Shown in pieces: positions 6,268-39,448 of a DNA stretch of 39,464 bases (position 1 is the stretch's first letter; each line of letters begins with the position of its first letter). Both the position numbers and the translations under genes were made by a program. The notes below the pieces were generated by a model. That model did no database searches. It worked only from the letters and a program-made list of their open reading frames with translations, and was not told the DNA's origin. Source of the stretch: an uncultured Flavobacteriales bacterium. Lineage in GTDB: Bacteria > Bacteroidota > Bacteroidia > Flavobacteriales_D > CAJJDF01. The stretch spans positions 1-39,464 of the forward strand of contig CAJJDF010000032.1 of NCBI GenBank assembly GCA_905182785.1, in the 5' to 3' direction.

Positions 6268-7452
6268 ATGAATAACAAAGAAATTTTCTTTAATTACCAA
6301 GCACAAACAACTCCTTTTCCGATAGGATTGGAAATAGAACGTGCCGAAGGTTTATTTATTTATGATACGAATGGAAAAGCGTATTACGATATGGTTTCTG
6401 GATTAGCAGTTACCAACATTGGTCATAGGCATCCTAAGGTATTGAATGCAATTAAAAAACAGCTTGATACACATTTACATGTGATGCCTTACGGGGAATT
6501 TATTCAAGGTCCACAAATAAAATTAGCCGAGAAGTTAAACTCTATTTTACCGGATAATTTAACTACTAGTTATTTTGTAAATTCTGGTGCCGAATCAGTT
6601 GAAGGTGCATTAAAACTAGCAAAAAGATATACGGGAAGGCAAGAAATTATTGCGTGTCACAAATCGTATCACGGAAGTACTCACGGAGCTTTAAGTGTTT
6701 CGGGGAACCTGTTGAAACAGTCAGCTTTTAAACCTTTGTTACCTAATGTGAATTTTATTCATTTTGATGAAATGGATGATTTATCAAACATTACTGAGAA
6801 AACTGCTTGTGTAATTATAGAAACTGTGCAAGGTGATGCAGGCGTAAGAATTGCTTCTCAAGCTTACATGAAAGCTTTGAGAGAAAAGTGTACAGAAACT
6901 GGAACTCTTTTAATCTTAGATGAAATACAAACAGGATTTGGACGAACAGGAACATTTTTTGCCTTTGAGCAATACAATATTACTCCCGATATTTTGTGCA
7001 TTGCCAAAGCTCTTGGTGGCGGAATGCCAATAGGTGCATTTGTTTCGAGTAAAGAAATAATGGATTGCTTAACTAACAATCCTATGTTGGGTCACATTAC
7101 CACTTTTGGTGGGCATCCCGTAAATTGTGCTGCTGCTGTTGCTAATATTGAAGTAATTGAAGAAGAAAACTTAATTGAAGGAGTAAAAGAAAAAGGAGAA
7201 TTGATGAAACAATTACTTTCTCACAAAATTGTAAAAGAAATTCGCCAAATAGGATTAATGCTAGCTATTGATCTAGAAAGTGATGAAATAACTCAACAGG
7301 TTGTAGAAGGCTGTATGAAAAAAGGAATTATTACCTTTTGGTTTTTGTCTTGTCCAGCGAGTTTTAGATTGGCTCCACCTCTTACAATTACTACTAAAGA
7401 AATTGAATTAGTTTGTAAAGGGATTAATGAAGTTTTTGATTCTGTGAAATAG
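6268..7452 (+). CDS. Class III PLP-dependent aminotransferase (ornithine/acetylornithine type)
   Basis: A cytosolic 394-residue fold-type I PLP enzyme of the class III family. It has the NSGAES phosphate-binding loop (about 105-110), LILDEIQTGFGR with the cofactor-ring Asp (about 218), CIAKALGGGMPIG with the Schiff-base Lys (about 247) and HITTFGGHPVNCAA. Family members use acetylornithine, ornithine, GABA or related amines. The exact substrate cannot be fixed from sequence and no arginine-biosynthesis genes lie nearby, so I give no symbol. A TTG two codons earlier is in frame, but the ATG at 6268 matches the usual N-terminus. It is a single-gene unit behind a structured leader, which suggests regulation by attenuation. 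Confidence 0.88.
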   Translation: MNNKEIFFNYQAQTTPFPIGLEIERAEGLFIYDTNGKAYYDMVSGLAVTNIGHRHPKVLNAIKKQLDTHLHVMPYGEFIQGPQIKLAEKLNSILPDNLTTSYFVNSGAESVEGALKLAKRYTGRQEIIACHKSYHGSTHGALSVSGNLLKQSAFKPLLPNVNFIHFDEMDDLSNITEKTACVIIETVQGDAGVRIASQAYMKALREKCTETGTLLILDEIQTGFGRTGTFFAFEQYNITPDILCIAKALGGGMPIGAFVSSKEIMDCLTNNPMLGHITTFGGHPVNCAAAVANIEVIEEENLIEGVKEKGELMKQLLSHKIVKEIRQIGLMLAIDLESDEITQQVVEGCMKKGIITFWFLSCPASFRLAPPLTITTKEIELVCKGINEVFDSVK

Positions 7453-7468
7453 ATTTCTTCTGGATTAA

Positions 7469-7510
7469 CAGTTTCAACCCTGAACTCAATTAAACTGGCA
7501 AAGATTTTTT
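7469..7510 (+). terminator. Weak terminator candidate after the aminotransferase gene
   Basis: CAGTTT at 7469-7474 pairs with AAACTG at 7492-7497, enclosing a loop with a small inner hairpin (TTCA/TGAA), and a run of T follows at 7505-7510. It lies in the short gap between two converging genes. Confidence 0.35.
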
Positions 7511-7517
7511 AATTACT

Positions 7518-8924
7518 CTACTTTCTTTTTAAGAACTGAATAAACACTTTATTCTGCTCAAATTCTTGAATTAATTCCCACTCGTTATGTAAAGCATCTA
7601 CGATAGAATCTGACACATTGAAAGTATTGGAATATAAAATATAGTCGGTTTCGTTCTCTGTTGCTTTTTGATATGAAATGCTATTTTTTGGCTTCAATTG
7701 GTAGTTTTTCATCAATTTATAATGAGGAAAAAAGGTTCCAATCTTTGCCCTGTCCATTTCTGTTCTTGTCAAATAATCTTCCATTTCGTCTGATACCTCA
7801 AAGAAATTCCAGTGCATTGTTGTCGCATCCCAGCCTTGACTTACTTTCTCGGGATACAACCAAAAATGACCGCTTGCTAGAGAAATAAAGCACAAAGAAA
7901 GCCATAACCAGGGTCTCCTTAAATAAGTGGAAATCCAATAGACGGTCACAATAATAATTGGAATCATGATTGGGATTAAATACCTGTGACCAAAAGGGTT
8001 TCGGAAAATAATTATGATTGCGAAAAACAGAATAAACTGTGTCATTGCAATCAGGAACAAAGTCTGAATTATGTGATCCTTGAATCTCCATTTTCTTAAA
8101 CTTTGCATAGAAAGGAACGCAAATAAAAGAAAGATAAAGACTCTACCAAAATCGATTAATCTCCACCCAAAAACACCAATGTTTCGTGCTATTTCATTCA
8201 CAGAAGCCAATTCTCCCGATTCTTTCCAGTTGTTAGAAACTGTATTGGCAATCACCCAACCTTTGTGCACTTTGAAGAGCACCAAAAACAGTACGATAGA
8301 AATTAATCCAGGAATGTAAACTAGGTAGTTTTTATAACTAAATTTTGTTTTGTTGGCGTACTGATATAAAAACTGAAACCCCATGATTCCACCTGCCGAA
8401 ATAGTTCCTCTGAGACTTGTTTGAGCCAATAAAACAAAGGCAATCATTAGTAAAAAATTTCGCTTTTCTAGAGTTGCATTGATACACAATAAGAAAAAGA
8501 AAAGATGAAACACTTCGAATGTTAATCCTGATAATTGTGACAAAACAGTGGCATCTATCAGGATGAAAATTAGGATAAAAATGCGAGTAGCAAGAACTTT
8601 AATCTGGAGATTAATCAATAATTTATGCAATTGATATAGGAATCCGAAAACAAAAGGGAGCATTAACAAATGACTCACCAACAGTGTTCTGCCAAATATT
8701 TTCCAAACTCCAGCAAACAACATCCCAACAAAAGTTTGGTGTCCTGTTGCTAACTCATCTGGCACATAAAAATAATTGAAATTGGTTTCGTAATACCAGT
8801 TTGCTGGTACTGAAATTTGAACCACATTATCCCAGTAGAAAGGAAAGTCTAACCCATTAAAAACAATTAATAGTGAGATTAGAAATAATATTAAATCTAT
8901 TCGTGAAAGTCTATTTAACATCAT
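7518..8924 (-). CDS. Polytopic membrane protein, GT39/ArnT-like
   Basis: This 468-residue protein starts with a transmembrane helix (about 10-25) followed by a loop with an acidic residue (FPFYWDNVVQ), then a series of hydrophobic helices to about residue 370 and a soluble C-terminal tail. This is the layout of GT-C fold polyprenyl-phosphate-sugar glycosyltransferases (GT39/ArnT/PMT type), where an Asp in the first periplasmic loop is catalytic. The match is in architecture and the WDN loop only, so glycosyltransferase activity is inferred. It starts 14 bp after yebC ends and is probably cotranscribed with it. The start is the first or second of two adjacent Met codons. Confidence 0.6.
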   Translation of the reverse strand: MMLNRLSRIDLILFLISLLIVFNGLDFPFYWDNVVQISVPANWYYETNFNYFYVPDELATGHQTFVGMLFAGVWKIFGRTLLVSHLLMLPFVFGFLYQLHKLLINLQIKVLATRIFILIFILIDATVLSQLSGLTFEVFHLFFFLLCINATLEKRNFLLMIAFVLLAQTSLRGTISAGGIMGFQFLYQYANKTKFSYKNYLVYIPGLISIVLFLVLFKVHKGWVIANTVSNNWKESGELASVNEIARNIGVFGWRLIDFGRVFIFLLFAFLSMQSLRKWRFKDHIIQTLFLIAMTQFILFFAIIIIFRNPFGHRYLIPIMIPIIIVTVYWISTYLRRPWLWLSLCFISLASGHFWLYPEKVSQGWDATTMHWNFFEVSDEMEDYLTRTEMDRAKIGTFFPHYKLMKNYQLKPKNSISYQKATENETDYILYSNTFNVSDSIVDALHNEWELIQEFEQNKVFIQFLKRK

Positions 8925-8938
8925 CCTCTTTTAAAAAT

Positions 8939-9703
8939 TTAGTCCTCTTCTTCTAATGCGGCAGCTAATTCATCCGTCATTTCAAGTGTATGATACACAA
9001 CATTCACATCATCATCTTCTTCCATTTTATCAATCAATCTAAGAACTGATTTTGCTTTATCAACTTCCAATGCTTTTGTTGTCGTAGGAATTCTTTGAAG
9101 CTCTACACTCTTCGCTTCAATCTTCATTTCATCCAATTTTTTCTGCATGTCGCCATAGCTATCAAATGAAGCGTAAACGATTACTTCTTCCTCCTCCACT
9201 TCAATTTCTTCCAATCCTGCGTCAATCAATTCAAATTCAAATTCTTCTAATTCCCAATCTTTTAATAACTCTCTCTCGATTGTAAAAACACCTTTCCTAT
9301 CGAACATAAATGACAAAGAACCATTTATTCCCAATTCTCCTCCATACTTATTAAAAATCATACGAACATTTGCCACAACCCTATTTTTATTGTCAGAAGT
9401 TGCTTCTACAAATACCGCTATTCCGTTACTTCCATATCCTTCAAACGTATATTCCTGAAGATTTGCTGCTTCCTCACCAGAGCCTTTCTTAACTGCTCTC
9501 TCAATATTATCTTTGGGCATGTTGGCACCCTTAGCATTATTTATTGCTAACCTTAAAGAAGGATTCATTTCAGGATCTGGACTACCTCCATCTCTGGCTG
9601 CAATCGTAATTTCCTTTATTATTCTTGTGAATATTTTTCCTCTTTTTGCATCCTTTGCTCCTTTTTTGTGTTTAATGGATGACCATTTACTATGTCCTGA
9701 CAT
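8939..9703 (-). CDS. yebC: YebC/PmpR-family protein
   Basis: A 254-residue cytosolic protein with the unmistakable family start MSGHSKWSSIKHKKGAKDAKRGK, then ITIAARDGG, NMPKDNIERAVKKG and YEGYGSNG-like (FEGYGSNGIAVFVE) segments. The family has long been described as DNA-binding regulators, and recent work connects members to relief of ribosome stalling in translation. Length is normal, with an acidic C-terminal tail (ALEEED). The gene is divergent from purN across 120 bp, and the GT39-like gene follows it by 14 bp. Confidence 0.95.
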   Translation of the reverse strand: MSGHSKWSSIKHKKGAKDAKRGKIFTRIIKEITIAARDGGSPDPEMNPSLRLAINNAKGANMPKDNIERAVKKGSGEEAANLQEYTFEGYGSNGIAVFVEATSDNKNRVVANVRMIFNKYGGELGINGSLSFMFDRKGVFTIERELLKDWELEEFEFELIDAGLEEIEVEEEEVIVYASFDSYGDMQKKLDEMKIEAKSVELQRIPTTTKALEVDKAKSVLRLIDKMEEDDDVNVVYHTLEMTDELAAALEEED

Positions 9704-26843: not shown

Positions 26844-27776
26844 ATGAAAATTTTCCTATCCTATTTTAAAGATTATTTCAAGGACAACTTTAGCCTAAAG
26901 GCACATCTATTGATTGGTCTTTTTATTGCAATTTGCATTTATGCGAATTATCAATATGAAGTTTATCCAAAGTATTTTAGAGTAAAAAACTACAGTGAAT
27001 TAGGTGTTATAAAACTTTGGGGGATGTTTGCTTTTGCATTCATTGTTCCACTTTTAATTATGGCTGTTTTTCAAAAAGAAAAAAAAACAATTCTCAATAA
27101 ACATTATTTGATATTTGGTCTCTTAGGACTATTTTTTGTTTCATTAGACTCCTCCTACTACACTTTAAAATTTGTAAAACAATTAATCCCTTATGACATT
27201 GAAGGTTTTAGTTTTTATCAATCTTGCCTGTCCAATGTAAATAGTTTGTTTACAATAATGATCCCTGTTTTTATTGTCTATTATATTGTCAGCTATTTTA
27301 AACCCGAACTATATGGACTAAAGCTCAATGGCGTCAATATAAAACCGTACTTAGTATTAGTCGCAATTATGTTACCTATTGTATACATTTCAGCAGTAAC
27401 ACAAGAAGATTTTACAAAATACTATCCTTCCTATAGCTTCAATAGGTTTCAAGAAGCAAACTTATCCGAAGTGTCCAAAATTGCACTGTTCGAGTTTTGT
27501 TATGGATTCGATTTTATCTCAGTAGAGTTAATGTTTAGAGGATTTATGGTGGTTGCACTTTCTCGATTTGTTGGAAAAGATGCTATTTTACCTATGGTCG
27601 CTTGTTATGCATTTTTACATTTCGGAAAACCTATGGTAGAAACAATTGGCTCAGTATTTGGAGGTTTTGGGTTAGGGATTTTAGCCTATAAATCACGAAA
27701 TATCTATGGGGGATTAATTGTTCATTTGGCTGTGGCTTGGGGAATGGAACTCTCTGCTTTTATTCTAATATCATAA
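26844..27776 (+). CDS. CPBP-family intramembrane protease-like protein
   Basis: A 310-residue polytopic membrane protein with about eight hydrophobic helices. The C-terminal part matches the CPBP (CAAX protease/bacteriocin-processing) pattern: SVELMFRGF for motif 1, FLHFGKP for motif 2 and GLIVHLAVAWGMEL for motif 3. The usual EExxxR reads VExxxR, so one of the two glutamates is absent. I believe related sequences with a single Glu (WEFFFRG-like) exist, so this may be a subfamily trait. Activity is uncertain. It follows fabF by 29 bp and its stop overlaps the stop of the converging radical SAM gene by six bases. Confidence 0.75.
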   Translation: MKIFLSYFKDYFKDNFSLKAHLLIGLFIAICIYANYQYEVYPKYFRVKNYSELGVIKLWGMFAFAFIVPLLIMAVFQKEKKTILNKHYLIFGLLGLFFVSLDSSYYTLKFVKQLIPYDIEGFSFYQSCLSNVNSLFTIMIPVFIVYYIVSYFKPELYGLKLNGVNIKPYLVLVAIMLPIVYISAVTQEDFTKYYPSYSFNRFQEANLSEVSKIALFEFCYGFDFISVELMFRGFMVVALSRFVGKDAILPMVACYAFLHFGKPMVETIGSVFGGFGLGILAYKSRNIYGGLIVHLAVAWGMELSAFILIS

Positions 27777-29237
27777 CTTATATAAATTCCTCATTTTCTT
27801 TAATTCTAAATTTTCCTTTTTACTTAGTACATAATAAATTGGCATTTTAGCAATCTGTTTTAATTGAGAGACAGAAGTTTTAAAAGGCTTTGTACACAAT
27901 CTTTTTAGTGCAACTCTTCCTTTGGTTACCTGAAAGGTTTTGTGTGTGTATCTGTGTAATTTCTTGTAAAATTGCTGATTAAAAGTCCCCTTAAATAACA
28001 TAGCCAATTCATCCGAATCTGTCCAGTTTTGCTTTCCTTCCAATTCATCTTTTACCTTGTCATAAAACTTTGTCCCTGGAAGAGGGTAAGAAACTGATAT
28101 CCCAATATCATCTGGTTTTAATCTTTTTATTAAAGCTATCGTTTTGTCGATATCCTCTTTTTCCTCTCCCAAATATCCGTACTGAATAAAAAAAGCAACC
28201 CTCACTTCTTTTTGCTGAAGCAACTTGGTAGAGTCTTCTATTTGCTTAATTGTTGTTCCTTTATCCATTGCATCTAAAATCCCTTGAGATCCGCTTTCTG
28301 CTCCTATCCAGACTTCTTTTAACCCAGAACTAACCAAAGAGTCAATGTTGTTTTCTTTCAATAATAAATCAGCTCTACTTTGAATTTTGTAAGCTATTTC
28401 TAACCCCTCTTTCTTTAATTCTTTATCAAATTCTTGAACCCAATTTGGCTTTAATCCGAATATATCATCACACATCCAAAAATTAGTAACACCATAAGTA
28501 GTAGATAAAAAACTAATTTCTTCGACTACCCTTTTGGGTGATCTAGAATTATATCTATTTCCATAAATTGGTTTTGCACACCAATTGCATTTATAAGGGC
28601 AGCCTCTAGTTGTTGCAATATTCAAAGCAAAGGGATGAAGCTTGCTTTTCCAAGCTTTTTTATAGCTTTCCACGTTAATTAAATCCCAAGCTGGCTGAGG
28701 CAAGAAATCCAAATCCCTCAAGACTTCTCTTCTCCCATTATTAATTGTTTTTCCTTCTTTGGTAAAACAAATTCCTTTTACAGAGTCTAATGCGTCATTG
28801 TTCTCTAATGCTTTTAAGGTCTCGAGTAAGGTGACCTCTCCTTCTCCAAGAATTACAAAATCAGCTCCTTTCTCCAAATATTTTTTAAAATGATCCGTTG
28901 AATCTGAACTGGATACAATCACTTTACAGCCTTCTTGTTTAGCCAATTTAATCATTTCAAAAGCTGCTTCACGCATGTTGATTAAACACATTTTAGTCAA
29001 ATAATTAAACCCATCATCATACAATACAAAGTAATTGGGTTTTGTCGTCTTTAACAGTCCCTGTATTTCTTGTGCAGATTCTTTTAAACCCACATCAAAT
29101 AACGATACATCAAAACCATTATCTCTTAAAAAAGAAGCTGCATAAATTGTTCCTAAGGGAGGATAGGGAGTTCCAGTTTCCCATTGTTTGGAATCCATCT
29201 GATAAAAATAACTGTGGCTAAATAATATGCTAGACAT
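27771..29237 (-). CDS. B12-binding-domain-type radical SAM protein
   Basis: A 488-residue protein. The N-terminal part (YPPLGTIYAASFLRDNGFDVSLFD, then VILGEGE) resembles the cobalamin-binding-type Rossmann domain that precedes many class B radical SAM enzymes, though a DxHxxG cobalamin motif is not apparent. The radical SAM core has the cluster-binding CPYKCNWC (Cys at about 213, 217 and 220), WMCDDIFG, EVWIGAESGSQGILDAM and FFIQYGYLGE. The C-terminal 100 residues are basic. The substrate is unknown. It is the last gene of a polysaccharide operon, overlapping the nucleotidyltransferase gene by 8 bp, so a modification of a glycan or lipid carrier is plausible but unproven. Confidence 0.85.
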   Translation of the reverse strand: MSSILFSHSYFYQMDSKQWETGTPYPPLGTIYAASFLRDNGFDVSLFDVGLKESAQEIQGLLKTTKPNYFVLYDDGFNYLTKMCLINMREAAFEMIKLAKQEGCKVIVSSSDSTDHFKKYLEKGADFVILGEGEVTLLETLKALENNDALDSVKGICFTKEGKTINNGRREVLRDLDFLPQPAWDLINVESYKKAWKSKLHPFALNIATTRGCPYKCNWCAKPIYGNRYNSRSPKRVVEEISFLSTTYGVTNFWMCDDIFGLKPNWVQEFDKELKKEGLEIAYKIQSRADLLLKENNIDSLVSSGLKEVWIGAESGSQGILDAMDKGTTIKQIEDSTKLLQQKEVRVAFFIQYGYLGEEKEDIDKTIALIKRLKPDDIGISVSYPLPGTKFYDKVKDELEGKQNWTDSDELAMLFKGTFNQQFYKKLHRYTHKTFQVTKGRVALKRLCTKPFKTSVSQLKQIAKMPIYYVLSKKENLELKKMRNLYKL

Positions 29238-30129
29238 TTCTCAAATTATTAATTGTTTTATTATAGGAGTCCAACACTTTTTTCTGAAAATTGCTGGGGT
29301 GATGTTTGGATACATTTCGGGTAGATTTAAAAGCAATATTAAAATCTATTTTTGGTAAATCAGGAAATTTTCTTTCCCATCTCTTTAGTGTTAGTTTCAT
29401 GCAATATAAATCTAATTTTTCACCAATTTTATTATTAAAAAATGACTCCAATATAGTTTGAAAAAAAGTACTTTTGTATTCAATTATATCCTGGTTTTTG
29501 ATTTTATTGAAATCATAATACTCTTCAGCCCATTGATTTTCTTCTATTAAAACTTTATATACCTTTTTATTAATAATGGGCATTAAAGTGAAAATTTCGG
29601 TTGCAGTAAAAATATTATTCTGATCAATTTTTAAGTCTTTTTCACCTAGGAAATAATTAACACAAAAGAATTTTCTGGAATTAAATAAAAACACTTTTTT
29701 GTATAAAATAAGTACGGTTCTTGCAAACCACATTCTATTGTGTTTGGTGATTACAAAATAATCTATATCGCCATCTAATGTTACATATCCTTTAGAAAAA
29801 GAACCAGAGATAAAAACGGCTCTCACATATGGAAATTTACTTATTAACTTAGCTCTTTTGATTGCTTTTCTTGTAAAAACCTTGGCCCTTTTGTTTCCTT
29901 GCTCTCTATTAATTACTCTTTCAGTATCATTTTTTAAACTATAAAAATTCCTCACTTTATACACAACAGAATCTTCTGTAAGTTTTTTCAATTCAGTAGC
30001 TACTTGATCTTCAGAAAATCCTTGAGAAAATATAAAAACTTCATCAAAAGTAAGCGGATAATCAAACACATCATAATAAGCCAATACTTTGAGTACAGCA
30101 GAAATATCTATGTCTTTGTTGTTTTTCAT
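29230..30129 (-). CDS. Winged-helix plus nucleotidyltransferase-domain protein
   Basis: A 299-residue soluble protein. The first 75 residues form a winged-helix-like domain (VLAYYDVFDYPLTFDEVFIF ... VVYKVRNFYSL). A pol-beta-type nucleotidyltransferase motif follows, with ISGSFSKG (about 107-114) and the metal-binding pair in LDGDIDYFVI (about 118-127). The C-terminal half is helical and of unknown role. Such proteins occur next to radical SAM genes in polysaccharide loci, and their reaction is not known to me. It overlaps the ligase gene by 4 bp (ATGA-type) and the radical SAM gene by 8 bp. Confidence 0.8.
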   Translation of the reverse strand: MKNNKDIDISAVLKVLAYYDVFDYPLTFDEVFIFSQGFSEDQVATELKKLTEDSVVYKVRNFYSLKNDTERVINREQGNKRAKVFTRKAIKRAKLISKFPYVRAVFISGSFSKGYVTLDGDIDYFVITKHNRMWFARTVLILYKKVFLFNSRKFFCVNYFLGEKDLKIDQNNIFTATEIFTLMPIINKKVYKVLIEENQWAEEYYDFNKIKNQDIIEYKSTFFQTILESFFNNKIGEKLDLYCMKLTLKRWERKFPDLPKIDFNIAFKSTRNVSKHHPSNFQKKVLDSYNKTINNLRNV

Positions 30130-31580
30130 TTGGTGGAGTAAGATACTAAGTTTTTTTTAGGTCCTTGGTTTAAATCTATTCTTACTAAGATGGCTAAACT
30201 TGACATAAATAGGATTGCCATTTTTTGAGAATCAATAAAAGAATTGAATAAACCGTGAATGTAAAACGTGATTAATCCTAAAATTGAAGCATAAACCAAG
30301 AGCTTTGTTGATTTATCTAATCCCGAATACAAAAGCTTTATTGATAAATAAATAGAATAAAATAATAGAGATAAAAACACAAGAAAGCCTACAATTCCAG
30401 TTTCGGATAAATAAGTAAAATACTCGGAATGCGCATTCCCTTTGTCGCCCATGTGAGTGCTTATTCTGGTAGTAAATTCATTGGTTTGGTAGTTCCCATA
30501 ATTAAACTGATAAGTCCCAGGTCCAAATCCTAAAATTGGTTTTTCCTCGAACATTCGCACAGCACACACCCATCTATTTATCCGTTCCATGTTAGATGCA
30601 TCATTCTGTAAATTTGTTATTGAAACGATATGAGTAGAAAAATTATCTCCATACTTTAATGAATTCTCTTTTAAGGTTCCATAAATTGAATTGAAATTGA
30701 AATAAATGACTCCGAATAAAACCAATACTATCCCTACAAAATGATAAAATCTTAATCTTAATCTTGTGAAAATGAAAAATAACATGGCTACAACCACACT
30801 GATCCAAGCTGCTCTGGAATAGGATAAAAATAATGCGATAAGTACCAGGGAAAGAAAAATAAGTTTAGGAATAACCTTCCATTTTAATTCCTTTTTATTC
30901 GTTATGTCTAACACAAGAAAGGGGACAATAAAAGCAAGACAAGCTCCATAAATAGTGTGCTCATCATAAAAAGGAAGCGAAGCATAAACAGAAGCTGGCT
31001 GAACAAACTCCCATTGAGAATGGTCAATTATTGTATAAATTATTGGTGCTATTAATCCAATTCCATACAGCCAATATACTTTTTTTAATTGCTCTTTTTT
31101 TGTCAAAAATTGAATTAAAAAGAAGTAAAAAACAACATAAAAAATCGATTGAGATATTGTTCTTTTAATTGAAATGGAGGGGTCTACAGAGGTAACTGTT
31201 GAAAACACCAAACTAGCGATTAACAATAAAATTAAGACACTCATGGGATGTGTAATTATTCTTTTCTCAAATTTTAATCCTCCCAAAAACTTTAACACAA
31301 CAATTCCCACAACTAGCAACATCATAATTTCTGAAGGGGCAGATAACTTAAAACCATCACCTATTGTTAAATCAATAGATAGAGGTGTTAAAAATACGAT
31401 TGCCAACAATAAGTTTGACGTGTGATTGAATAGAAATGGAGCTGCAATAAGCGCACTCATACCTACTAGGATTAACGTTACTTTTTCTACGTCTTCTTTG
31501 AATAAATAATAGACACAAGCACATAAAAGTATTCCTGTAGCTAATAGAAAAAACGATTTATTTTTTCTGCTCTTATTCAT
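30126..31580 (-). CDS. O-antigen ligase-like (Wzy_C) membrane protein
   Basis: A 484-residue protein with about a dozen hydrophobic helices and a large periplasmic loop at about 310-400. That loop carries ILGFGPGTYQFNYG and GNAHSEYFTYLSETGIVGF, the conserved H-S-E-Y and E-x-G-x-x-G elements of the O-antigen ligase/polymerase family. These proteins join or polymerise undecaprenyl-linked glycans at the periplasmic face. It cannot be decided from sequence whether this one is a ligase or a polymerase. It overlaps the Wzz-like gene by 8 bp and the nucleotidyltransferase gene by 4 bp. Confidence 0.85.
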   Translation of the reverse strand: MNKSRKNKSFFLLATGILLCACVYYLFKEDVEKVTLILVGMSALIAAPFLFNHTSNLLLAIVFLTPLSIDLTIGDGFKLSAPSEIMMLLVVGIVVLKFLGGLKFEKRIITHPMSVLILLLIASLVFSTVTSVDPSISIKRTISQSIFYVVFYFFLIQFLTKKEQLKKVYWLYGIGLIAPIIYTIIDHSQWEFVQPASVYASLPFYDEHTIYGACLAFIVPFLVLDITNKKELKWKVIPKLIFLSLVLIALFLSYSRAAWISVVVAMLFFIFTRLRLRFYHFVGIVLVLFGVIYFNFNSIYGTLKENSLKYGDNFSTHIVSITNLQNDASNMERINRWVCAVRMFEEKPILGFGPGTYQFNYGNYQTNEFTTRISTHMGDKGNAHSEYFTYLSETGIVGFLVFLSLLFYSIYLSIKLLYSGLDKSTKLLVYASILGLITFYIHGLFNSFIDSQKMAILFMSSLAILVRIDLNQGPKKNLVSYSTK

Positions 31581-32547
31581 TTGCTATTGATTCTGAAAAA
31601 TTGCTCCAATGAATTTTCAATGAATAAAAAAGTATGCTCCCAATCGCACCAATCAAAAATCCTAAAATAATATTAAGCAAAAATGAAGGGGAAGTTTTTT
31701 TATAATCTGCAATTGCATTTTGCACTCTATAAATTCTTGGGAAAGGCACACTTGTCTTTTCTTTAAGCACTACTAGTTCTCTCTTTAAGTTAGATAAAAT
31801 AGAAAGTTGATGGTAATATTCATTTATTGCTTTTGCAGTTTTAAACGTATAATTATTCTTTGCCGCATTAATTATAATTTCATCTCCCAGTCCAAGGTTT
31901 CCATTCTTATTGTTTTCCTCTAGTTTTGAGACTATATTCTGTGCTAACTGATTCGGTTTTGTCGTCTTTTTTTCATTTGAAAGGAGAAACAACAAGCTAT
32001 CAACAATAATTTGATGATTGTATACTTTGTGTGATAAATCGTCTTGTAATGCATATACATTTTCATATAAGATTTCTTTTCTAATCGTATCAATATAAGA
32101 CATCATTGTATTGGCAATCTTACTCGCCAATTCTGGTGATTTCATGATTACATTGAGTTTTACCGAAATAAATTTTGTTCTTTTAAAACTAATGTCTTCA
32201 ATGTAGTACTTGTTTAAGTAATACCTCCAGTTTTTAGAGTTTGTATCTATTTCGTAATAATTAATTAGGTCGTATCTTTTTATAATGGTTTCTTTCATTT
32301 TTTGAGATTCAAACAGTTGAATCAATCTGTCTGCCTGGAACTCATATCCAAAAAAATTGCTGTTCGCTACATCCTTCATAGAATTGGAATTGGTGGGAAA
32401 TACAATCCCTGAAGCTGTATATTTTTTGGGAATAAAAAACGTAACTCCGACTGCTATAATTGCAAACACAATAGAAAATAATAAAATCTTAACTCTGTTT
32501 TTAAATAAAGTCTCCAAAACTCTTTTGTTAGCTGTTTTCTCTTCCAT
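31573..32547 (-). CDS. Wzz-like chain-length determinant protein
   Basis: A 324-residue inner-membrane protein with one helix near each end (about 16-36 and 290-310) and a long periplasmic helical region between, the Wzz/PCP layout. It has GVTFFIPKKYTASGIVFPT after the first helix and no C-terminal tyrosine-kinase domain, so it resembles PCP-1-type proteins. Such proteins set glycan chain length together with a polymerase, here presumably the next gene. It is the first gene of a four-gene operon, with a possible -7 element 54 bp upstream. Confidence 0.85.
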   Translation of the reverse strand: MEEKTANKRVLETLFKNRVKILLFSIVFAIIAVGVTFFIPKKYTASGIVFPTNSNSMKDVANSNFFGYEFQADRLIQLFESQKMKETIIKRYDLINYYEIDTNSKNWRYYLNKYYIEDISFKRTKFISVKLNVIMKSPELASKIANTMMSYIDTIRKEILYENVYALQDDLSHKVYNHQIIVDSLLFLLSNEKKTTKPNQLAQNIVSKLEENNKNGNLGLGDEIIINAAKNNYTFKTAKAINEYYHQLSILSNLKRELVVLKEKTSVPFPRIYRVQNAIADYKKTSPSFLLNIILGFLIGAIGSILFYSLKIHWSNFSESIANE

Positions 32548-32754: not shown

Positions 32755-34128
32755 TTATTTCCCAAACTCTTCAGTGAAATATTGATAGAAATAAGGAATA
32801 GTTTCAATTCCTTTTAGGTAATTAAAAATTCCATAATGTTCGTCTGGCGAATGAATGTCATCTGTTGCCAATCCGAATCCCATCAATACAGATTTAAGTC
32901 CTAACTCAGCCTCAAACATAGAAGTAATAGGAATACTTCCTCCTCCTCTAACTGGAATTGGTGTTACTCCAAATGTTGTTTCCATTGCTTTACTTGCTGC
33001 TTGATAAGCAGGAAAGTTTGTTGGAATTAAAAATGGCTCTCCTCCGTGATGTGGAGTTACTTTCACTCTCACAGCATCTGGTGCAATGGATTCAAAATGT
33101 GATCGGAATTTTTCTGTAATCTCATCAGAACTCTGACCAGGAACTAATCTCATAGAGATTTTTGCATAAGCTTTAGAAGGTAAAACTGTTTTAGCTCCTT
33201 CTCCAATATATCCTCCCCATATTCCATTTACATCCAAAGTTGGACGAATAGAAGTTCTTTCGTTTGTTGAATATCCTTTCTCTCCAAATCCTTCTTTTAT
33301 TTTCAATTCAGCATTATAATCATCTTGATTAAAAGGTGCTTTTGCCATTTCTGCTCTGTCTTCATCAGAAACTATCTCTACATTATCGTAAAATCCTTTT
33401 ACTGTGATGTGATTATTTTCGTCTGTTAACGAAGCAATCATGTTACACAAAATATTAATTGGATTCCCAACTGCTCCTCCGTACAATCCTGAGTGCAAAT
33501 CACGGTTTGGTCCAGTTACCTCAACCTCCATATAACTCAACCCTCTTAAACCAACTGCAATAGATGGCGTTTCATTTGAAATCATAGAAGTATCAGAAAT
33601 CACAATCGTATCGGCTGCTAATTTCTCTTTGTTCGCTTTTACAAAAATCCCTAGGTTTTCAGAACCAACTTCTTCTTCTCCCTCAATCATAAACTTAGCG
33701 TTACAAGGCAAAGAGTTTGTCTTTATCATGTATTCAAATGCTTTTACGTGCATGTAAAATTGTCCTTTGTCATCTGCAGAACCTCTTGCATAAATATATC
33801 CGTCTTTTATTACAGGTTCAAACGGTGGACTTGTCCATAATTCAATAGGATCTGCTGGTTGCACATCATAATGTCCGTAAACCAAAACAGTTGGTAATTT
33901 AGGGTCAATGATTTTTTCTCCATACACAATTGGATGACCTGCTGTTTCACAAATTTCTGCAAAATCTACTCCTGCATCAATCAAACTTTGTTTCACGTGC
34001 TTAGCACATCTATTTACTTCACTTTTATATGCTGGATCAGCACTTACAGAAGGTATTTTTAATAAATCTACTATTTCATCTATGAATCTGTCTTTGTGTT
34101 CTTCAATGTATTTTTTTACGTCTGCCAT
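32755..34128 (-). CDS. M20-family dipeptidase (CNDP-like)
   Basis: A 457-residue metallopeptidase of the M20 carnosine-dipeptidase-like group. It has VLVYGHYDVQPADP (metal His at about 86 and Asp at about 88), YARGSADDKGQ (bridging Asp near 119), MIEGEEEVGS (catalytic and metal Glu at about 151-152) and a dimerisation-type insert at about 205-325 with DLHSGLYGGAVGNP. A late PDEHYG supplies the final metal His. No signal peptide is seen, so it is cytosolic. It is monocistronic, with a clear terminator and 163 bp to the divergent FBPase gene. That upstream gap shows no further feature I can support. Confidence 0.92.
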   Translation of the reverse strand: MADVKKYIEEHKDRFIDEIVDLLKIPSVSADPAYKSEVNRCAKHVKQSLIDAGVDFAEICETAGHPIVYGEKIIDPKLPTVLVYGHYDVQPADPIELWTSPPFEPVIKDGYIYARGSADDKGQFYMHVKAFEYMIKTNSLPCNAKFMIEGEEEVGSENLGIFVKANKEKLAADTIVISDTSMISNETPSIAVGLRGLSYMEVEVTGPNRDLHSGLYGGAVGNPINILCNMIASLTDENNHITVKGFYDNVEIVSDEDRAEMAKAPFNQDDYNAELKIKEGFGEKGYSTNERTSIRPTLDVNGIWGGYIGEGAKTVLPSKAYAKISMRLVPGQSSDEITEKFRSHFESIAPDAVRVKVTPHHGGEPFLIPTNFPAYQAASKAMETTFGVTPIPVRGGGSIPITSMFEAELGLKSVLMGFGLATDDIHSPDEHYGIFNYLKGIETIPYFYQYFTEEFGK

Positions 34129-35291: not shown

Positions 35292-36161
35292 CTATAAAGT
35301 AAATTCTTGTTTTACAAGCTCTTTATTTTCATCCGTGAAATAAACTACGAAGTATTTTCCGTGTTCCCAACCTTTTACTTTTACAGTAAAATTTAATGTA
35401 ATGTCATCTGCCTTTGGAATCGTCATCACCTTGCCGAATTCATGGATTAACTCCCCATTATCTCTTATTATTTTACTTCTTATTTTTGTTATTCTTTTTG
35501 TTCCAAATTTTATTTTCCCTTTAATTTCAACTGGTTCTGCCACTATATTTTGATTCTCATCTACCGCAATTTCTCTTCGTGTACTCTGCCAAGGAATTCT
35601 TCCTCCGGTAATGCTCGCAACAGTTTCTTGTAGCTTCGTATCCTCCTCATCATAAATATTACCTATTGATTTATCATCTGTAATGCACCAAATTGATTCT
35701 TGGATTTGGTTATCATCATATTCTTTGGTGTTGAGAAATACAAAAAGCTGTTTCAGCTTAGTGTTTTTAGAATTCCCAACTGTAAAGACACCGCCTTCAC
35801 TTGGACATTTATCACTAGCCTCTGAACAATATCCATTTACTAAGTGCGATTGTATTGACTTCTTATTGATAGTAATCAATTCCATTTTTGGTAAGACCAA
35901 GGTCTGCTCATTCTCATCTTCAGGATAAAAAAGAGTTCCTTGCGGAATTTTCATAGTAACGTTTTTGCTGAATTTAGATTCTATTTCAAGGGACACACTT
36001 CCTCCAGTATAGTTCCCGTTTGAAATAATTTTAACCGAAAACATAGGGTCTTGGATTAATTCCTGCAAGGTAAATATTGATTGTTTATTGTTCGATTTTT
36101 CTACAAATCCATACGAACAATATGCAGCCACAGCTGCTATTAAAATGACTTTATTTTTCAT
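35292..36161 (-). CDS. Exported protein of unknown function, 289 residues
   Basis: It has an N-terminal hydrophobic segment (KVILIAAVAAYCSYGF) that looks like a signal peptide; the Cys there lacks a good lipobox. The middle region is beta-rich: VTMKIPQGTLFYPEDENEQTLVLPK followed by a NGYCSEASDKCPSEGG pair of cysteines that could form a disulfide. The C-terminal 90 residues look like an immunoglobulin-type beta domain (ITLNFTVKVKGWEHGKYFVVYFTDENKELV). I do not recognise a named family. It starts 54 bp after the DUF5686 gene on the same strand and may be in its operon. Confidence 0.7.
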   Translation of the reverse strand: MKNKVILIAAVAAYCSYGFVEKSNNKQSIFTLQELIQDPMFSVKIISNGNYTGGSVSLEIESKFSKNVTMKIPQGTLFYPEDENEQTLVLPKMELITINKKSIQSHLVNGYCSEASDKCPSEGGVFTVGNSKNTKLKQLFVFLNTKEYDDNQIQESIWCITDDKSIGNIYDEEDTKLQETVASITGGRIPWQSTRREIAVDENQNIVAEPVEIKGKIKFGTKRITKIRSKIIRDNGELIHEFGKVMTIPKADDITLNFTVKVKGWEHGKYFVVYFTDENKELVKQEFTL

Positions 36162-38854: not shown

Positions 38855-39403
38855 TTATTTTTTAGAAATCCAAGGAATTTCTTCCGCATTTAAATCTTGT
38901 GTAAATTTACGACTCAAGACAAATAAATAGTCCGATAATCTATTTAGGTATTTTGTAATGATTGGGTCTACTTCGCTTTCATTAGATAAATGAACAGAGA
39001 TTCTTTCTGCTCTTCTACACACACATCTTGCAATGTGACATTGCGAAACTGTTGGGTGACCTCCTGGCAATACAAAGAATTTCATATCTGGTAATTCTTC
39101 GTTATATTGGTCCATTGCATTTTCCAAATCCACAATCATTTCTTCATTTATTGAAGGGATTTTCACTTTATCCTTTCCTGGTTCTTTAGCAAGGTGAGAA
39201 CCTATTACAAATAAATTGTCTTGAATCTGGATTAAAAATTCTTTGGTTTCTTTCTCCATTTCTTGGTCACGAATTAATCCCAAATGCGAGTTTAATTCAT
39301 CTACTGTTCCATAAGCTTCAATTCTTAAATGGTATTTAGGAACTCTTGCTCCTCCCAATAAACTTGTTTCTCCTTTGTCGCCTGTTTTTGTGTAAATTTT
39401 CAT
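38855..39403 (-). CDS. Cob(I)alamin adenosyltransferase, PduO type
   Basis: A 182-residue enzyme that transfers the adenosyl group of ATP to cob(I)alamin, giving coenzyme B12. It has the PduO-family N-terminus MKIYTKTGDKGETSLLGGARVPK (ATP-binding loop), AYGTVDELNSHLG, LPGGHP and RCVCRRAERIS. An in-frame Met 30 bases upstream would lie inside the terminator hairpin of the previous gene, so I chose the Met at 39403, which also gives the standard N-terminus. No cobalamin biosynthesis genes are in the window, and the enzyme may serve salvage. Confidence 0.95.
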   Translation of the reverse strand: MKIYTKTGDKGETSLLGGARVPKYHLRIEAYGTVDELNSHLGLIRDQEMEKETKEFLIQIQDNLFVIGSHLAKEPGKDKVKIPSINEEMIVDLENAMDQYNEELPDMKFFVLPGGHPTVSQCHIARCVCRRAERISVHLSNESEVDPIITKYLNRLSDYLFVLSRKFTQDLNAEEIPWISKK

Positions 39404-39418
39404 AAAACAAAAATACAT

Positions 39419-39448
39419 AAAAAAAGCTCCCAATTTCTTGAGAGCTTT
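39419..39448 (-). terminator. Terminator of a gene just beyond the right end
   Basis: AAAGCTCCC (39423-39431) pairs with GAGAGCTTT (39440-39448, one G-U) around an 8-base loop, and on the minus strand seven T follow. It should end a minus-strand gene lying outside the window. Confidence 0.75.

Follow-up and report, generated by a model that had tools for sequence, protein, structure and literature searches.

A winged-helix nucleotidyltransferase and a radical SAM enzyme as a candidate glycan-tailoring pair in Bacteroidota

A four-gene operon built from two modules

The window analysed here, by which we mean the whole stretch of 39,464 nucleotides, carries on one strand four overlapping genes (Table 1) for a Wzz-type chain-length protein, a Wzy_C family membrane protein, a predicted nucleotidyltransferase (NT) and a B12-binding-type radical SAM enzyme (rSAM1). 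A sequence-only reading of this DNA had described overlaps of 8, 4 and 8 bp and proposed that the four products are probably made together; the ORF coordinates bear out the overlaps (Wzz/Wzy_C 8 bp, Wzy_C/NT 4 bp, NT/rSAM1 8 bp), and joint production is supported. Chance overlap can be dismissed because the NT–rSAM1 junction is conserved: with the duplicate locus L020 omitted, 48 of the 102 loci carrying both genes have the identical 8-bp overlap, an approximate count as ORF starts were set mechanically. Orthologues of the CAAX-protease-like gene flank the equivalent site in three related genomes (G001, G002 and G003), and in G002 the M20 peptidase orthologue keeps the same gene order. At its 3′ end the operon runs convergently into the CAAX-protease gene, overlapping it by 6 bp (27776 versus 27771).

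Table 1. Genes of the operon and of its variable-site flanks, with positions in the window.
Feature	Coordinates	Strand	Basis
Wzz-type polysaccharide chain-length protein, 324 aa (module 1)	31573..32547	-	ORF + PF02706
Wzy_C family O-antigen ligase/polymerase-like membrane protein, 484 aa (module 1)	30126..31580	-	ORF + PF04932
NT, winged-helix + KNTase/ANT(4'')-like nucleotidyltransferase, 299 aa (module 2)	29230..30129	-	ORF + predicted structure
rSAM1, B12-binding-type radical SAM enzyme, 488 aa (module 2)	27771..29237	-	ORF + Radical_SAM
CAAX-protease-like membrane protein (flank, outside the system)	26844..27776	+	PF02517
M20 peptidase (other flank, outside the system)	32755..34128	-	PF01546

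The operon is two joined modules, Wzz with Wzy_C and NT with rSAM1. Pfam places the first protein among the Wzz chain-length determinants (PF02706, 46.2 bits, cut-off 25.5) and the second in the Wzy_C family (PF04932, 88.9 bits, cut-off 31.7), and these two had been singled out beforehand as a recognisable pair, which holds; the two-gene unit recurs in kin. It stands without NT or rSAM1 in six genomes (G016, G026, G004, G005, G002 and G033), and a second such unit lies elsewhere in the window's own genome. Near NT the window-like versions are rare: of 87 loci, just 4 have such a Wzz close by and 9 the ligase (the 87 include one duplicate, L020 and L009 being one contig, G004:C3). Of the earlier reading, co-production stands, but the Wzz–ligase and NT–rSAM1 units are separable. 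The window-like ligase subfamily does co-occur with NT, in five of its six holders (p 5e-4).

Families and folds of rSAM1 and NT

With a Radical_SAM score of 65.6 bits (Pfam cut-off 29.5), rSAM1 belongs to the radical SAM superfamily, and the CxxxCxxC cluster motif is present in 96/96 relatives. The B12-binding domain (PF02310) scores 30.2 bits, slightly below its cut-off of 32.1. The rSAM1 model matches TsrM, MgmA, OxsB and AprD4 (6wte, 9ccb, 5ul3, 6fd2) at E 1e-17 to 1e-19 and 16–18% identity; TsrM and OxsB are cobalamin-bound, whereas AprD4, equally among these matches, is not known to bind cobalamin. Among the NCBIfam equivalogs none fits, and assignment to BchE (156 bits, curated cut-off 481), HpnJ (125.8, 578), TIGR04072 (113.8, 360) or TIGR04295 (84.1, 400) is rejected, every score lying far under its cut-off. 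In the window neither MT1 nor MT2 adjoins rSAM1, and the window's genome holds no rSAM2 orthologue.

NT falls slightly short of the Pfam cut-off for NTP_transf_2 (20.0 against 21) and further short of that for Polbeta (17.9 against 26.9), and a sequence search of the PDB returned no significant relative; a Foldseek search with its model (pLDDT 93.3) gave nothing below E 0.001, and among viral contigs none of 12 pattern matches was an NT relative. The hG[GS] loop and DxD motif nonetheless place it in the pol-beta-type superfamily, as G109, D121 and D123 are present in 111/111 aligned sequences, where the metal-binding aspartates D121 and D123, together with C156 and N158, are invariant. Its likeness to KNTase comes from the predicted structure, in which residues 81–201 resemble ANT(4'')/KNTase (Z 8.3, rmsd 3.1, 113 aligned), and not from sequence search: hhalign of 48 NT sequences against KNTase gave a probability of 1.3% over 32 columns, which does not confirm sequence homology, and we accordingly reject membership of the KNTase family by sequence and keep the likeness to fold only. 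The third-strand position is taken by the invariant Asn158, with no conserved carboxylate there, so that NT is no more than a predicted nucleotidyltransferase; E178 is near-invariant (106/111). In KNTase the base is supplied by a C-terminal helix.

The predicted model also contains a winged helix (residues 3–76) that matches winged-helix transcription factors, and it had been suggested that NT might regulate the glycan operon; its nucleotidyltransferase domain would then sense or modify, not build. We consider this improbable. The winged helix is acidic, with a mean charge of -3.4 over 48 sequences (L020 again omitted), -6 in the window and a mean of -2.0 in the putative recognition helix; the catalytic-domain aspartate pair is invariant; and obligate pairing with one enzyme is untypical of regulators. 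Moreover, two genomes (L101, L102) encode NT as a fusion with a GT4 glycosyltransferase, and the winged helix appears, on reading the sequences by eye, to be retained within these fusion enzymes.

A rare but near-perfectly linked pair

In the sampled Bacteroidota NT and rSAM1 are rare but near-perfectly linked. Of 296 near-complete genomes, 27 carry NT and 24 carry rSAM1; every one of the latter also has NT, no more than 5 kb away (in one, G326, across a contig break); the association has a Fisher p of 2e-32, uncorrected for relatedness. Of 40 kin genomes, eight have NT, seven rSAM1 and seven both, including G016 where the genes lie on different contigs.

This constancy also bears on whether NT might be an MNT-type antitoxin or defence protein with the operon as passenger, a reading prompted by weak fold matches to MntA of HEPN-MNT pairs (E 0.02 to 0.03) and by the PADLOC match PDC-M05A (16.1 bits), PADLOC giving weak matches only. 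The partner of NT, however, is rSAM1 in 24 of its 27 genomes, its neighbours here are the genes for Wzy_C and rSAM1, and Pfam finds no HEPN family among the four operon proteins. To our knowledge, neither the winged helix nor the basic C-terminal part is found in MNT proteins, and we regard a toxin–antitoxin or defence role as very improbable indeed.

Glycan genes around the pair

Where flanking sequence was available, glycosyltransferases lie within 10 kb on the downstream side in 40 of 47 loci, against 2 of 47 on the upstream side. One GT2 cluster (22) was counted there on a label given by eye only, while genes labelled Wzx?, SGNH?, SULF? or PMT-like?, which lack Pfam confirmation, were not counted as glycosyltransferases. 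In a phylum-wide sample, NT is labelled in 24 loci (L104 and L123, which have no labelled NT, are not among them), and 16 of these have a glycosyltransferase within 10 kb; NT and GT4–NT fusions were excluded from this count, and two more loci (L101, L102), where the GT4 domain lies inside the NT protein itself, were kept apart. The figure of 16 is weak on its own because chance alone not infrequently places a glycosyltransferase in 20 kb of sequence. In L013, L014 and L119 NT directly follows the gene for an initiating sugar transferase, which is Bac_transf either by itself or as a fusion with Wzy_C, and in L110 and L111 it lies on the strand of the glycosyltransferase/Wzx cassette, opposite rSAM1–MT1.

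These neighbourhoods support the earlier view that an NT–radical SAM pair with no assigned reaction is linked to glycan genes. It had been said that the pair being usually found away from polysaccharide genes would tell against this view; that is so for window-like Wzz and ligase, but not for glycan genes generally. The absence of a glycosyltransferase or flippase, from which an accessory or terminal module had been deduced, is true of this genome only: at the equivalent site two congeners (G001, G003) carry a full locus with Wzx, Wzy_C, two GT4 and Bac_transf, with NT–rSAM1 at its end. Across sister species the site holds either a complete Wzx/Wzy locus ending in NT–rSAM1 or no glycan genes.

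The two genes were compared in trees of 39 or 45 chosen rows, the full NT set having 111 sequences. The rSAM1 tree unites the window with L013 and L014 in one clade (100*), while in the NT tree L013 and L014 group with L119 and L110 (94) and the window's NT with L009, L010 and L049 (95*); an AU test against window, L013 and L014 as a single NT clade is borderline (p 0.0499), the group having been named after the identities were seen. Similarly, NT of the GT4-adjacent loci L099 and L100 groups with the GT4-fused NT of L101 and L102 (100*), and rSAM1 of L099 and L100 falls among ordinary rSAM1. On these sequences the trees disagree, rSAM1 going with congeners and NT with neighbours of similar glycan cassette.

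The main competitor to a glycan role, that the two proteins have a product with no relation to glycans (a small molecule, a lipid or a cofactor) and lie in variable islands that happen to contain glycan genes as well, must be weighed against this evidence. Six of the 24 phylum-sample loci (L112, L114, L118, L120, L121, L124) have an unfused NT next to rSAM1, in some cases also MT1, but show no glycosyltransferase within 10 kb; in G026 the five-gene module is alone on a contig of 9 kb that has no glycan genes; and the extra B12-type radical SAMs and methyltransferases nearby resemble a biosynthetic pathway. Chance residence in such islands would, however, sit poorly with the one-sided, downstream position of the glycosyltransferases, with the existence of the GT4–NT fusion and with an NT subtype that tracks the neighbouring glycan gene and not the species. 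We think it unlikely, though deserving of serious attention.

A proposed role and its relation to known systems

We favour, with a probability of about 0.58, the reading that NT and rSAM1 are an undescribed glycan-tailoring pair. They would form a two-protein unit, obligate in its pairing, that makes a chemical change to a surface glycan or to the lipid-linked precursor of one, with NT on the glycan side and rSAM1 as constant partner. The pair probably makes a glycan change because the partners are inseparable and usually lie in or beside surface-sugar gene clusters. NT, as a KNTase-like nucleotidyltransferase, would recognise a sugar or sugar-lipid from the local assembly machinery and bind a nucleotide on that sugar or transfer one to it, its acidic winged helix perhaps serving as a protein-docking domain; rSAM1 would next alter a carbon of the sugar or carrier, by C-methylation or by a skeletal rearrangement. 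Here the pair has been joined to the Wzz–Wzy_C module, and the modified unit would therefore be polymerised or ligated by products of the same operon. A bolder version, which we offer as speculation, is a two-part system present Bacteroidota-wide: a swappable, cassette-matched NT would attach a nucleotide to a lipid-linked sugar, enabling the one constant B12-type rSAM1 to rebuild that sugar's carbon skeleton, and the surface glycan would thereby gain an undescribed sugar.

If the tailoring reading is correct, radical chemistry decorates surface glycans in cultured genera, among them Flavobacterium, Tenacibaculum, Winogradskyella, Aquimarina and Kordia, which would point to sugars not yet described and give this winged-helix nucleotidyltransferase family its first function; the rare but near-perfect linkage of the two genes makes a sharp genetic test possible.

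Within those parts of the literature that our search reached, we found no paper describing the NT–rSAM pair. Wzx/Wzy-dependent loci share Wzz and Wzy_C with this operon, and we know of none outside those described here with such a pair. OxsB, AprD4, TsrM and MgmA, which act on sugars or small molecules, resemble rSAM1 in fold at low identity, and none of the four is known to have such a nucleotidyltransferase as partner. The ANT(4')/(4'') enzymes (KNTase; 1kny, 6un8) share the fold of the NT catalytic domain and the GS...D-x-[D/E] motif, D121/D123 aligning with KNTase D50/E52. In contrast to these drug-resistance enzymes, NT sits in glycan loci and has an additional N-terminal winged helix and a conserved C-terminal SKHHP-like motif.

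An NT–rSAM1 unit distinct from Wzz–Wzy_C

The sequence-only reading had treated four minus-strand genes of the window as one coupled polysaccharide unit, and the ORF listing confirms their overlaps of 8, 4 and 8 bp, but the products, assigned by Pfam and NCBIfam to the Wzz, Wzy_C, nucleotidyltransferase and radical SAM families, form two modules rather than one: Wzz with the ligase/polymerase-like Wzy_C, and a winged-helix nucleotidyltransferase (NT) with a B12-type radical SAM protein (rSAM1). The nucleotidyltransferase Pfam score of NT and the B12-binding score of rSAM1 both fall narrowly under cut-off. The window is a complete contig of 39,464 bases from a Bacteroidota genome of 2.32 Mb and 73 contigs; it also carries a PduO-type cob(I)alamin adenosyltransferase-like gene (named by eye) and a 289-aa protein that looks secreted and has no Pfam match (see table).

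Wzz–Wzy_C stands alone as a two-gene unit in G016, G026, G004, G005, G002 and G033, and ligase matches occur in 36 of 40 nearer relatives. A second copy in the window's own genome adjoins a sugar nucleotidyltransferase-like gene, a setting shared by the G002 pair. NT–rSAM1 is a unit of its own. Scanning the NT alignment against genome contigs gave 87 loci (seven from nearer relatives plus the best 80 of 254 relatives, one duplicate included), among which rSAM1 is present in 81, the class I methyltransferase MT1 in 70, a second radical SAM gene (rSAM2) in 66, a window-like ligase in nine and a window-like Wzz in only four, with rSAM1 immediately following NT in 76. The four-gene order of the window also occurs in a Crocinitomicaceae contig (L069).

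Across 296 Bacteroidota genomes with a completeness of 90% or more, NT occurs in 27 and rSAM1 (threshold E 1e-60) in 24, all of which also carry NT, at most 5 kb away by coordinates (24/24, including G326, where a contig end interrupts NT). Three NT genomes lack rSAM1: in G149 and G160 NT forms a fusion with a GT4 glycosyltransferase, and in G057 it is broken, with an rSAM1-matching fragment in the same stretch. Among the 40 nearer relatives NT is found in eight, rSAM1 in seven and both in seven, on different contigs in G016; Fisher tests of co-occurrence gave p = 2e-32 and 4e-7, values that ignore relatedness.

Glycan neighbourhood and proposed function

Of the 47 loci that have rSAM1 and complete flanks, 40 have a glycosyltransferase (GT; cluster representatives Pfam-checked, one GT2 cluster excepted) downstream and two have one upstream. 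NT–rSAM1–MT1–rSAM2 is largely constant beside a variable downstream region of GT2, GT4, GT87, PMT-type, ABC exporter and putative flippase genes. Sequence comparison establishes the pairing and its glycan link. A GT lies within 10 kb in 16 of 24 phylum-sample loci with a labelled NT, and the other eight comprise two with GT4-fused NT and six with neither GT nor fusion. The GT4–winged-helix NT fusion occurs without rSAM1 in two genomes of one genus (L102 by Pfam, L101 by similar sequence), and in L013, L014 (via a matching 602-aa ORF) and L119 the gene directly before NT encodes the initiating transferase Bac_transf, either by itself or fused to Wzy_C.

In the predicted structure of NT (pLDDT 93.3), residues 3–76 form a winged helix, whose acidic character disfavours DNA binding, and residues 81–201 resemble ANT(4'')/KNTase, top-ranked at Z 8.2–8.3 yet within the range of chance matches. 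G109, D121, D123, C156 and N158 are identical in 111/111 aligned sequences. The rSAM1 model (pLDDT 85.3; weak at 76–84, 214–226 and 403–408) best matches TsrM, MgmA, OxsB and AprD4. We commit to NT–rSAM1 as a glycan-tailoring pair, for which we infer both reactions and their order: NT would bind or nucleotidylate a sugar or sugar-lipid supplied by local machinery, and rSAM1 would then alter its carbon skeleton. The main rival is that the product is not a glycan and the pair is carried in glycan-rich islands. Every part falls in a known superfamily; literature listings yielded no description of the obligate pairing or of a cassette-matched NT.

Differing histories and a variable site

Identities and trees indicate that NT tracks the cassette and rSAM1 the host. 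The window's rSAM1 is 76% identical to that of G001, 73% to G003 and at most 66% to other nearer relatives; its NT is 39% and 38% identical to those of G001 and G003, and 48–49% to those of G004 and G007. The rSAM1 tree unites the window with L013 and L014 (support 100), and constraining L013, L014 and L119 together is rejected (p 1e-68). The NT tree places L013/L014 with L119/L110 (94) and groups the window's NT with those of L009, L010 and L049 (95, or 83 in a tree that also contains L052); the AU test is borderline (p 0.0499) against uniting the window, L013 and L014 in one NT clade. GT4-adjacent L099/L100 join GT4-fused L101/L102 at 100, with long branches involved. In L110 and L111, NT shares a strand with a GT/Wzx run, and rSAM1–MT1 lies on the opposite strand.

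The window's genus has a fixed site with exchangeable content, flanked by an M20 peptidase on one side and CAAX-protease/fabF/acpP/sdh genes on the other. The window carries Wzz–ligase–NT–rSAM1 there; in G003 a Wzx/Wzy/GT locus comes after the CAAX gene and includes NT–rSAM1–MT1 and a further methyltransferase, MT2, and in G001 the CAAX gene adjoins a locus of the same kind. The sister species G002 has no glycan genes at this site, and two unrelated ones instead, an ORF judged PadR-like by eye and another of 230 aa.

Two further observations concern neighbouring genes. One lipoprotein-like gene has a CMWCH haem-type motif, matches no Pfam family and belongs to a cluster that in 22 loci occupies the +4/+5 position following NT. 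Radical SAM genes rSAM3/rSAM4 with methyltransferase MT4, often with a GT4 or PMT-type transferase, recur near either module.

Coordinates of features discussed in the text
Locus	Positions	Feature
Window	35292-36161	289-aa protein
Window	38855-39433	adenosyltransferase-like gene
L132 (G000:C31, window's genome)	7184-9617	second Wzz–Wzy_C copy
L142 (G002:C25)	7562-8591	PadR-like and 230-aa ORFs at site of window's operon
L101	9419-11425	GT4–NT fusion
L102	8154-10124	GT4–NT fusion
L081	4865-5995	lipoprotein-like gene
L127	12136-16557	rSAM3/rSAM4–MT4 set
L129	11053-17512	rSAM3/rSAM4–MT4 set
L009	6010-8276	rSAM3/rSAM4–MT4 set
L010	11846-15413	rSAM3/rSAM4–MT4 set
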